A stretch of DNA of 54,562 bases from a virus. Both the position numbers and the translations under genes were made by a program. Location: positions 1 to 54,562 of the IMG/VR virus record IMGVR_UViG_3300042564_006016. The stretch is one strand, 5' to 3'. Shown in pieces: positions 7,091 to 45,400 of this stretch (the stretch's first letter is position 1; the number at the start of each line of letters is the position of its first letter). Under the pieces are notes generated by a model. That model saw only the letters and a program-made list of their open reading frames with translations. It was not told the origin of the DNA and ran no database searches.

Positions 7091-7181
7091 GAGCTGGTGG
7101 CGGAAGTAGACGCTTAGGGGTTTAAATCTTGAAAAAGTACCTACCCGAAAATATTGCAAGTATCGAATCTTGCCCAGCTCA
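7091..7181 (+). tRNA. degenerate class II tRNA-like element (Leu-like)
   Basis: Acceptor GAGCTGG (7091-7097) pairs perfectly with CCAGCTC (7174-7180), with discriminator A7181 and then CCT rather than CCA. The D-arm GCG/CGC with GTAGACGC is typical of tRNA-Leu, and the T-stem GCAAG/CTTGC is perfect. Deviations: the T-loop has eight bases (TATCGAAT), the D-loop lacks one of the GG pair, and the 24-base variable region has no clear stem. With canonical spacing the anticodon is UUA (would read UAA), giving a 5-bp stem with three G-T pairs. Shifted by one base it is UAA (Leu), with a poorer stem. UAA is widely used as a stop here, so a working ochre suppressor is unlikely. It may be a decayed tRNA-Leu or a tRNA mimic. 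Confidence 0.55.
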
Positions 7182-7199
7182 CCTTTTACAGCTTGAAAT

Positions 7200-7315
7200 C
7201 TAAAATCTGGAGTGGTGAAATATAAACACAAGCAACTGGCGTACATGCTAGAACGGCACCGAGATCTAGAGTGGGTTCTTTGCAAGAGTGCAAGTCTCTT
7301 GCCTCCAGATTTTAG
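7200..7315 (+). ncRNA. tRNA-like structured RNA with 13-bp closing stem
   Basis: 7200-7212 pairs perfectly over 13 bp with 7303-7315 (core TCTGGAG/CTCCAGA). Inside are a tRNA-like D-arm GTG/CAC (7215-7217, 7227-7229), an AGCA/TGCT arm with an 11-base loop (7231-7249), a long variable-arm-like hairpin AGAAC/GTTCT (7250-7254, 7275-7279) with an inner CAC/GTG, and a T-arm-like stem GCAAGAG/CTCTTGC (7282-7288, 7296-7302) with loop TGCAAGT. The layout copies a class II tRNA, but the stems are too long and the anticodon arm is wrong for a tRNA. It ends 22 bases before the 7338 start, so it may act as a leader or be processed from it. Confidence 0.6.
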
Positions 7316-7337: not shown

Positions 7338-8057
7338 ATGTCTTTATCAAACCCACAAACAAGTCAAAATCCTGCAACCAAAATTATTGATTGGAAAGGA
7401 AGCGAAGGTTACTTTAAATATTACAACAAAGAAATTAAAGAAGATATTAGGCTAGAGTCTCCACTTTATATTATAGTTTTAGACCAACTTTCTACAATTA
7501 CAGGTTACAGTGATGAAATGCAAAGCGGAATTTGGTCAAACGAAGTTAGACTAACAGCAAAAGAAGAGTTTTTTGTAAAAACTAAACAAGGCGTACAAGC
7601 AAAAGGGTTGTACCAAACAATCAAACCACAAATAGTACAAATGGGTGGCAAATATGCTAAATCCGTTTATGCAGTTTTAATTTCTGGAGATAAAGAAAAT
7701 ACAAAATTAGATTTAGTAAATTTTAAATTTTATGGAAGCTCTTTAAGCCCTTTTATTGAAGCAAAAATTGGTGATACTGGAGAAGTAATTTTATTAGAAC
7801 AAAACCCAGAAATTAAGAAAAAAGGTGCTACAAAATACTATGAACCTAAAATTACAAAACTTCAAAAAAGAGAAGATATTTTAGAAAAAGCAATTAACTT
7901 AGATAAGGAACTACAAGAATACTTACAAGCCTATTTTTCGAAAGAAATTGACGGAGGCGAAATTATTCAACAGTCAATCCCGCAACCTATAGCAAAAGCA
8001 AGCTCAGAAATGCCAGAAATTAACATGGACGAAATAACAGTGCAAATGCCTTTTTAG
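7338..8057 (+). CDS. probable phage single-stranded DNA-binding protein
   Basis: 239 residues. The length, a beta-rich first 150 residues with many aromatic and Lys residues (KGSEGYFKYYNKEIKEDI, GLYQTIKPQIVQMGGKYAKS), a charged C-terminal region and an end in DEITVQMPF resemble phage SSB-type proteins, whose acidic tail ends in a Phe. It directly precedes a PD-(D/E)XK exonuclease, the usual partner in phage recombination modules. The assignment rests on context and composition. The start MSLSNP is shared with the next gene. Confidence 0.55.
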   Translation: MSLSNPQTSQNPATKIIDWKGSEGYFKYYNKEIKEDIRLESPLYIIVLDQLSTITGYSDEMQSGIWSNEVRLTAKEEFFVKTKQGVQAKGLYQTIKPQIVQMGGKYAKSVYAVLISGDKENTKLDLVNFKFYGSSLSPFIEAKIGDTGEVILLEQNPEIKKKGATKYYEPKITKLQKREDILEKAINLDKELQEYLQAYFSKEIDGGEIIQQSIPQPIAKASSEMPEINMDEITVQMPF

Positions 8058-8058
8058 T

Positions 8059-8907
8059 ATGTCTTTGTCAAATCCCCTAACCCCTACAAATAATGTAGGG
8101 GGAATCAAGCTAATGGACTTTAGAGATTATAAATTTAGATGTCATTATTTGGGTGATTTAATTGGGAGTTATTTATCCAAAGAAGATAAACAAAACGAAA
8201 CTTATCTAAAGCTAAAATCTAAAGACAAATTAACAGATTTACAAACTACCACTTTAGCAGATTTTGAGGCTAAAATTGAAGCCAAAAACAATCCCATTTT
8301 AGAAATTACTCAAGGTTCAAAATCAGTTCTCCATAAGATTTGGAATTTTGAAACTTTACAAATCAAAAAAGTCCTAAAATCAAAAGCAGTAAGAAGAGGT
8401 AAAAACCAAGAAGACGAAAGTATTGATTTAGTCAACCAAGTTTTTAAAACAAATTTAGTTAAAAATACTGAAAGATTTGAAAATGATTATTTTACTGGTG
8501 AACCAGATTTAATTACTCAAAAATCTGTAATTGACATAAAAACTTGTGAATCTTGGGAAACTTTTTGGTCAAAAACTTCAGAGAAAGCACATACAGACTA
8601 TTTTTATCAAGTCTGGGCTTATATGCTATTAACAGGTAAAAACCAAGGCTTTGTGGCTTATACTCTGCCAAGCTATGATCAAGAGTTTATTAGTTATGCT
8701 CAGTCAAGCACAATTGATTTAGAAGAAGCTGAGCAGACTTTTTTTAACTTGAATTTTGATAGAATCCCAAAAAATAAAAGAATAAAAATCTTTAAATTAG
8801 AATCTCGAAAAATTGACACAGTAAAAGTTTATAAGTACCTAGACAAATGCCGAGAATATTTAGACAACCTTACAACTCAATTTCAGAACTTCCAGCCTTT
8901 AGCTTAA
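8059..8907 (+). CDS. PD-(D/E)XK phage exonuclease
   Basis: 282 residues. The nuclease motifs are visible in order: a helix with Glu (GKNQEDESIDL, about 115-123), TGEPDLI with Asp150, VIDIKTCES with Asp159 and Lys161, and a following helix YFYQVWAYMLLTG near 178-190. This matches Cas4/YqaJ/lambda-exonuclease-like nucleases that resect double-stranded ends for phage recombination. One base separates it from the SSB-like gene. The first 25 residues, including a MSLSNP start like that of the upstream gene, look like an added leader. Confidence 0.8.
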   Translation: MSLSNPLTPTNNVGGIKLMDFRDYKFRCHYLGDLIGSYLSKEDKQNETYLKLKSKDKLTDLQTTTLADFEAKIEAKNNPILEITQGSKSVLHKIWNFETLQIKKVLKSKAVRRGKNQEDESIDLVNQVFKTNLVKNTERFENDYFTGEPDLITQKSVIDIKTCESWETFWSKTSEKAHTDYFYQVWAYMLLTGKNQGFVAYTLPSYDQEFISYAQSSTIDLEEAEQTFFNLNFDRIPKNKRIKIFKLESRKIDTVKVYKYLDKCREYLDNLTTQFQNFQPLA

Positions 8908-44285: not shown

Positions 44286-44510
44286 CTTTGCTCGAATTTT
44301 TGATAGCAGAAACTCTCTATGCTCAGGATTGCACCACCAATCATAAGTCTGAACAGTGTGAAAATGTAGATCCACAAAATACTTCTCCCGCAAATAAATA
44401 GGTAAAATCTTAGGGACATTTTCGTAGTTTTTGAAGGTTACGCACTCGTGAATTACAACCTTTTTTGATTGGTTATTTATTACTTTAAAAAAGACTGTTA
44501 TGGGGATCAT
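44280..44510 (-). CDS. hypothetical protein
   Basis: 76 residues (VFFKVINNQSKKVVIHECVT), with HFHTVQTYDWWCNPEH near the C-terminus, a His/Cys/Trp cluster that might bind metal. It overlaps the Dam stop by ATGA and is the last gene of the right-hand minus operon. Confidence 0.6.
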   Translation of the reverse strand: MIPITVFFKVINNQSKKVVIHECVTFKNYENVPKILPIYLREKYFVDLHFHTVQTYDWWCNPEHREFLLSKIRAKS

Positions 44511-45400
44511 AAAAGTTTTAAATTTTCATCTGGCAAGTTTGTAAAAAGTTTTTCGCACACCCGATTATTTGATTTTGCCGATAAAATACTTCTATGTACA
44601 TATTGTTCCACTTCTATAAGTGGGCTTTTGTAGCTCGATAAATATATTTTGTAGCCTTCTTTGGTTAATTTATCAATCCAACTATACATTTGATCATAAT
44701 CTAGCCCTTTTTGGTATTTAGCTGTGTCAATATAAGGAGGGTCTAAATAGATTATAGTTTCATTTTTTGGGGTGGTAAATTCTACTTGTTGATAATCTAA
44801 GTTTGTTATTTCAAGTCGTTCAAGTTGTTCAAGTTGTTCAAGTTGTTCAAGTTGTTCAAGTTGTTGAAGTTGTTGAAGTCGTTCAAGTTGTTTAAGTTGT
44901 TCAAGTTGTTGAAGTTCAAACCTACCCTCTATTTTAGCTATTTGTTTAAACTTATTTATTAATTCTATTCTTTTATTTGGGTTTTCTAAATAACCATTTG
45001 CGAGTAAAAATTCATGGGCTTGTCTTTTTATTTCTTCAATATTTTTTCCGAAAAGGTAGTTTTTTTGGTTATTTCCAAAACTCCAGCAGGTTTGAGCAAG
45101 CCCCGACTTCCAATTTGTACCGTCTTTAAGCTCTAAAAATTCTTCTCTACTTATCCAATTGTAAAACTCATCTGTAACTCCGTCTTTTTGTATTTTTTTG
45201 AGTAGGTTACAAACCACAGTATTTAATTCATTATAATAGACTTGTTTAATTTGCTTTCTTTGCATAAATTCAAAGCTAATAGCACCACCTCCACCAAAAA
45301 CATCGTAAATATATTTTGTTTGTGGGTTGTGAGTTAAAATATAATCAACAATTTTATTTGCTAATTTTCTTTTACTTCCCATGTAGGGGATACCAATCAT
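44507..45400 (-). CDS. Dam-type (D12 class) DNA adenine methyltransferase
   Basis: 297 residues. SAM-binding motif DVFGGGGA at 33-40, N-terminal PYMGSKRKLANKI as in D12-class enzymes, and catalytic DPPY at 220-223. Between these lies an unusual low-complexity insert at about 162-197 made of LEQ/LQQ tripeptides encoded by 9-bp repeats. D12 enzymes methylate adenine, often in GATC. In phages this protects DNA from host restriction or marks it for packaging. ATGA overlaps on both sides tie it to the operon. Confidence 0.9.
   Translation of the reverse strand: MIGIPYMGSKRKLANKIVDYILTHNPQTKYIYDVFGGGGAISFEFMQRKQIKQVYYNELNTVVCNLLKKIQKDGVTDEFYNWISREEFLELKDGTNWKSGLAQTCWSFGNNQKNYLFGKNIEEIKRQAHEFLLANGYLENPNKRIELINKFKQIAKIEGRFELQQLEQLKQLERLQQLQQLEQLEQLEQLEQLERLEITNLDYQQVEFTTPKNETIIYLDPPYIDTAKYQKGLDYDQMYSWIDKLTKEGYKIYLSSYKSPLIEVEQYVHRSILSAKSNNRVCEKLFTNLPDENLKLL
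44811..44917. repeat. 9-bp repeat array inside the methyltransferase gene
   Basis: About ten copies of TTCAAGTTG with variants TTGAAGTTG and TTCAAGTCG, in frame, encoding the leucine-glutamine tripeptides. Copies differ slightly, so the array has drifted since its expansion. Copy number is likely to vary between isolates. Confidence 0.9.

Follow-up and report, generated by a model that had tools for sequence, protein, structure and literature searches.

Organization of the locus

The window, meaning the whole stretch of DNA analysed, is a 54.6-kb virus record with a GC content of 32.5%. Two tandem tRNA-like elements, here termed E1 and E2, are preceded by small early genes and followed by a phrog_6706 gene, after which comes an exonuclease gene (Table 1). 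Among isolated phages there are no DNA-level relatives of the window, and two scans of genome contigs for a host delivered no match. At 44507-45400 the window encodes a D12-class adenine methyltransferase (PF02086) with an LEQLEQLEQ repeat inside, and the contig ends (53523-54548 and 1-147) carry tandem short repeats coding for DQVGDQVW-type repeats.

Table 1. Position and structure of the tRNA-like elements and the flanking genes in the window
Feature	Position	Strand	Remarks
E1, tRNA-Leu-like element	7091-7180	+	90 nt, plus ACC at 7181-7183
E1 closing (acceptor-like) stem, 5' strand	7091-7097	+	pairs with 7174-7180, 7 of 7 pairs Watson-Crick
E1 D arm, TGGCGGAAGTAGACGC	7098-7113	+	7-nt loop AAGTAGA without GG pair
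E1 middle domain	7114-7155	+	replaces anticodon and variable arms
E1 T arm, GCAAG-TATCGAAT-CTTGC	7156-7173	+	8-nt loop
Block identical in relative L027	7185-7337	+	153 nt, last base directly before the start codon
E2, putative member of a phage tRNA-like RNA family	7200-7315	+
E2 13-bp closing stem P1, 5' strand	7200-7212	+	pairs with 7303-7315
E2 D arm, TGGTGAAATATAAACAC	7213-7229	+	7-nt loop AATATAA without GG; motif by which the family was found
E2 variable middle domain	7230-7281	+	52 nt, anticodon arm absent
E2 7-bp T arm, GCAAGAG-TGCAAGT-CTCTTGC	7282-7302	+	abuts P1
phrog_6706 gene	7338-8057	+	possible DNA-binding or annealing protein; different gene in L027
Exonuclease gene (phrog_5715)	8059-8907	+

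A preliminary description of this DNA had placed two abnormal tRNA-like elements at 7091-7315; these coordinates are correct and the stems it described are present in the sequence. For E1 the reported Leu-like acceptor, D stem, T stem, eight-base T-loop and ambiguous anticodon were all confirmed. The 7-bp acceptor (GAGCTGG/CCAGCTC) and the 5-bp T stem of E1 agree with a class II tRNA-Leu, while G18G19 of the D-loop and a 7-nt TTCRANY T-loop are absent. A standard anticodon arm (5-bp stem, 7-nt loop, U33) can be formed only with three wobble pairs among the five of the sole possible anticodon stem of the middle domain, which presents UUA; an alternative register reads TAA. ARAGORN, proposed as a check in the preliminary description, made no call on E1 or E2 at default settings and at a 70% threshold reported E1 as 'tRNA-Stop(tta)', with this same five-pair stem. 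An intron-containing tRNA (ARAGORN -i) gave no convincing call. The folding z-score of E1 is -3.06, with one of 200 dinucleotide shuffles folding as well.

E2 departs further from a tRNA. Its closing and T stems measure 13 bp and 7 bp, versus the 7-bp acceptor and 5-bp T stem of class II tRNA-Leu (the inner 7 bp of P1 pair 7206-7212 with 7303-7309), and it lacks G18G19 in the D-loop, an anticodon arm and a TTCRANY T-loop, the latter reading TGCAAGT. The 13-bp closing stem and the 7-bp T-like stem described earlier are present. For the middle domain several folds are possible, and the hairpin with an 11-base loop at the place of the anticodon arm, AGCA(11 nt)TGCT, is just one of them. The folding z-score is -3.10, with 2 of 200 dinucleotide shuffles folding as well.

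At the gathering score Rfam delivered no match for E1 or E2, the tRNA model included, and at E<=10 only chance matches to microRNA and idnO models, below the cut-off. An antisense role of the elements within their own genome was rejected: the longest complementary or identical runs (13 and 11 nt) fall in the range of shuffled sequences.

Should the elements be functional unusual tRNAs, E1 would be a UAA-reading suppressor, in line with the ARAGORN call at the 70% threshold and with locus L009, which likewise carries a tRNA called tta. We consider this extremely unlikely, as E2 is without an anticodon arm and the D- and T-loops are without their normal elbow partners; the D-loop GG normally contacts the T-loop. 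Suppression would moreover be harmful, since TAA ends 25 of the 39 window genes checked.

Relative L027 and the modular array

A contig from IMG/VR that matches the window without a difference over 10.8 kb adds no information. The relative L027 shares mostly 93-99% identity with the window in the early region. It contains E2 letter for letter inside the identical block, past whose end most of the following gene differs; E1 is replaced by two other tRNA-like elements with defective anticodon arms; their scores under the Rfam tRNA model are 38 and 56 bits. The first of the two has the acceptor GAGCTGG/CCAGCTC as in E1 with a different middle; the second has perfect acceptor, D and T arms and an anticodon arm shrunk to a tiny hairpin. 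The genes swapped from the start codon onward (7338-8057 in the window, 14741-15451 in L027) have a similar C-terminus, MPEINxDEIT..MPF. A distant homologue of the window gene is also found in L009, directly followed by a tRNA (L009:3780-3855) whose acceptor, D and T arms are normal and whose 9-nt anticodon loop is mismatched.

The fast exchange of elements between close relatives, the tRNA shape without a usable anticodon and the RNA ligase encoded by the same genome might speak for a decoy or sponge that draws off tRNA-directed defence or tRNA-acting host enzymes, with the ligase serving repair; a tRNA-directed conflict had also been suggested in the preliminary description. The ligase (PF09414) is real but lies 40 kb from the elements, and the proposed link to them is unsupported. 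In addition, elements without GG lack the normal elbow, the feature read by most tRNA-binding enzymes. A decoy role appears unlikely.

Occurrence and conservation of the family

An unrelated contig carries the 19-nt D-arm sequence of E2 as well, next to a GOLLD RNA. In a scan of 2.9 million viral contigs the degenerate D-arm pattern GTGGYGRAATATARACRC alone matched 46 contigs, and the matches have a common architecture of closing stem, D arm, variable insert, T arm and again closing stem. In 32 of the 38 non-redundant D-arm matches a 7-bp stem and a T stem, both without mismatch, abut within 300 nt, versus a mean of 0.45 and a maximum of 3 in the shuffle control. A T-arm pattern alone matched 25 contigs, 10 already known and 15 new; upstream of the 15 new T arms the 5' half of the D arm is present in 14 and both halves in 13, with varied D-loops.

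The family was defined by a closing stem of at least 7 bp, a D arm TGGYGRAA...RACRC and a T stem abutting the closing stem, and the catalogue comprises 53 distinct elements, including one true tRNA-Leu and several GG-keeping copies from tRNA arrays. E2 agrees with the definition in full and E1 in everything except its 8-nt T-loop, which recurs in L059 and L062; E1 groups with the elements of these two loci. A structured intergenic RNA in L015 was omitted, its D and T arms not being clear. In Rfam 15 no family matches the elements at the gathering score, except that the GG-keeping copies of L042 pass weakly as tRNA.

The members are situated in noncoding DNA, and their neighbours often include GOLLD (L031), skipping-rope (L050, L054) and 6A (L050) RNAs as well as tRNAs. 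In L031 (400-1162) a GOLLD RNA is followed by a member with an apparently duplicated D arm and by a canonical tRNA. In L042 (5900-10210) and L064 (7147-9065) elements with variable middles, most of them of the AGTCAGG/CCTGACT kind, form arrays; ARAGORN counts 16 tRNAs in the former and none in the latter.

In the core alignment of 19 ungapped sequences 100% of the cells are paired and both sides change in 13 of 17 pairs, with a covariation score of 0.72 versus 0.165 for shuffled and at most 0.217 for slid sequences; this set was selected by complementary stems, and the independent tests are the D-arm shuffle comparison and the T-arm scan. A standard anticodon arm is possible in only three of the 53 elements, namely the true tRNA-Leu, L043, where it is probably due to chance, and E1; six of seven real tRNA-Leu controls pass the same test.

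The pattern of substitutions indicates that the stems, the short D-loop and the T arm of the family are maintained by selection. Decayed tRNA genes, meaning phage tRNA-Leu genes carried along as passengers after loss of the anticodon arm, would not preserve stems by compensatory change or keep a D-loop motif and a T arm in phages that are unrelated, nor would perfect top halves be expected while the anticodon arms are missing in nearly all members. Signs of decay are nevertheless seen in the TTTAAA loop and wobble-rich anticodon stem retained by E1, in the second element of L027, which resembles a tRNA with the anticodon loop deleted, and in L042, where true tRNAs and altered copies are mixed. 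On balance, decay is a distinctly unlikely explanation of the family and already largely contradicted for E2, while E1, given its weak anticodon arm, could be a damaged tRNA. Of the two terms used in the preliminary description, 'decayed tRNAs' is thus apt insofar as E1 and some relatives look tRNA-derived and inapt for the parts under selection; 'tRNA mimics' agrees with closing and T stems conserved by covariation, the opposite of the unconserved stems that would have spoken against it.

The preliminary description further saw the elements as turned into a leader. A cis-acting tRNA mimic in the 5' UTR, regulating the downstream recombination genes, would suit E2, which ends 22 nt before the start codon, where the block identical in L027 stops exactly, and a few other members situated 14-30 nt before an ORF. 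As a general role it is not supported: an ORF of at least 80 codons starts within 60 nt in only 6 of the 53 catalogued members, and the next ORF is more than 300 nt distant in 34, which argues against a general cis-acting leader. In L027 an identical E2 stands before another gene, and many members are located among tRNAs and other noncoding RNAs. A leader is very unlikely.

Members in cultured phages and plasmids

A query combining a D arm that retains GG with a 6-bp T arm, run at a lax threshold, matched 258 phage records, and a similar query 153 plasmid records; both numbers are upper bounds, with true tRNA-Leu genes of cyanophages and partial matches counted in. The sister subfamily with a D-loop GG occurs in SPP1, phi3T and SPbetaL7, in phages of Listeria, Lactobacillus, Leuconostoc and Enterococcus, and in conjugative plasmids. 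The SPP1 member is located between genes 9 and 11, those of phi3T and SPbetaL7 after an HU-like gene. Among the loci opened, further members were found in Grass, KLEB27-1, EG-TP1, Ln-9, phiLM33_01, LP65, Lenus, Sha1, D6E, PK3.5, Pd_22F, Listeria B025 and PSA; those of phi3T, PSA and pTEF1 were read by eye and not by script. A match in a Stenotrophomonas phage is a true tRNA-Leu and was used as a control. Most matches in cultured phages carry no annotation; small ORFs overlap those in B025 and LP65.

In SPP1 (X89721.1; L103:2596-2765) a mini tRNA-like hairpin (ACGGAC..GTCCGT, T-loop TTCAATT) and then a T run come after the member, a further instance of the tandem arrangement. In the enterococcal pheromone plasmids (pTEF1, L119:700-1310; L118:1430-2060) the interval from the surface exclusion gene to the aggregation substance gene holds a variant member and, as a second tRNA-like element, one lacking an anticodon.

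Comparison with known RNAs

Bacterial class II tRNA-Leu shares with the family the 7-bp acceptor, the D-arm sequence UGGCGGAAU..AGACGC and the position of the T arm, but the family has no standard anticodon arm, many of its D-loops are without GG, its T stem has 6-7 bp in most members and CCA is usually absent. tmRNA (ssrA), which also occurs in phages, has a similar tRNA-like end and a large insert at the place of the anticodon arm; the family differs in having a real D stem and does not match the Rfam tmRNA model, and an ARAGORN search of the window found no tmRNA. Allo-tRNAs (8/4 and 9/3 acceptor/T branch) are likewise tRNA-shaped with unusual stem lengths. They keep their anticodon arms and have a 12-bp branch, whereas the closing and T stems of E2 total 20 bp and the anticodon arm is absent.

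GOLLD and ROOL are structured phage RNAs located near phage tRNA islands (PMC12286853), and the member in L031 adjoins GOLLD; the family differs from both in sequence and size, with no GOLLD or ROOL match inside the members examined. The skipping-rope and 6A RNAs are phage noncoding RNAs of the same regions (L050, L054), but form separate Rfam families without overlap with members. In the window none of the Rfam models for tmRNA, GOLLD, ROOL, skipping-rope and 6A matched at the gathering score.

A search of the open-access literature, with much literature outside its reach, found no description of such a class, and an earlier description is possible. The 2018 re-annotation of SPP1 does not mention a tRNA or tRNA-like RNA (PMC6316719). 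The tRNA-like family apparently represents a widespread, so far undescribed class.

Interpretation

E1 and E2 probably belong to a large family of noncoding, tRNA-like RNAs found in tailed phages and some conjugative plasmids, as judged from sequence and predicted structure. The fixed part would correspond to the top of a tRNA-Leu, with the closing stem, a D arm from which GG is often removed and a T arm of 5-7 bp stacked on the closing stem, while the anticodon and variable arms would give way to a structured insert, roughly 40-240 nt long and different from phage to phage. Most likely the elements are noncoding RNAs that are stable, shaped like a tRNA and equipped with a variable working domain, a function that we infer. 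Cutting of the RNA from longer transcripts, and its stabilisation by host tRNA-processing enzymes through the tRNA-like end, may be given an even chance; it is somewhat less probable that the insert is a working domain acting in trans. Whether this amounts to a widespread, undescribed class of noncoding RNA of mobile elements, with a tRNA-Leu-derived scaffold on which a swappable effector domain replaces the anticodon arm, appears evenly balanced on present sequence evidence. Because the inserts share no sequence, the one family may unite RNAs with different jobs.

Phage genomes are tightly packed, yet many retain a tRNA-shaped RNA that is unable to decode. If real, the class has gone unnoticed until now in SPP1, phi3T, Listeria phages and enterococcal conjugative plasmids. 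Confirmation would place another broad class of RNA beside GOLLD and ROOL, account for some of the noncoding DNA that lies unannotated around the tRNA arrays and late-gene regions of phages, and make SPP1 and phi3T tractable model systems for the job of the RNA. Counts of phage tRNAs, and claims that these supplement translation, may be affected.

A Paenibacillus plasmid (L078:3996-4680) carries a member followed by a tRNA-Trp and two further tRNA-like elements; one of these two has a large insert after the D arm. SPP1, within the insert, and Grass contain a candidate pseudoknot, recognized by eye, in which CCTC/GAGG crosses GTACGGG/CCCGTAC.
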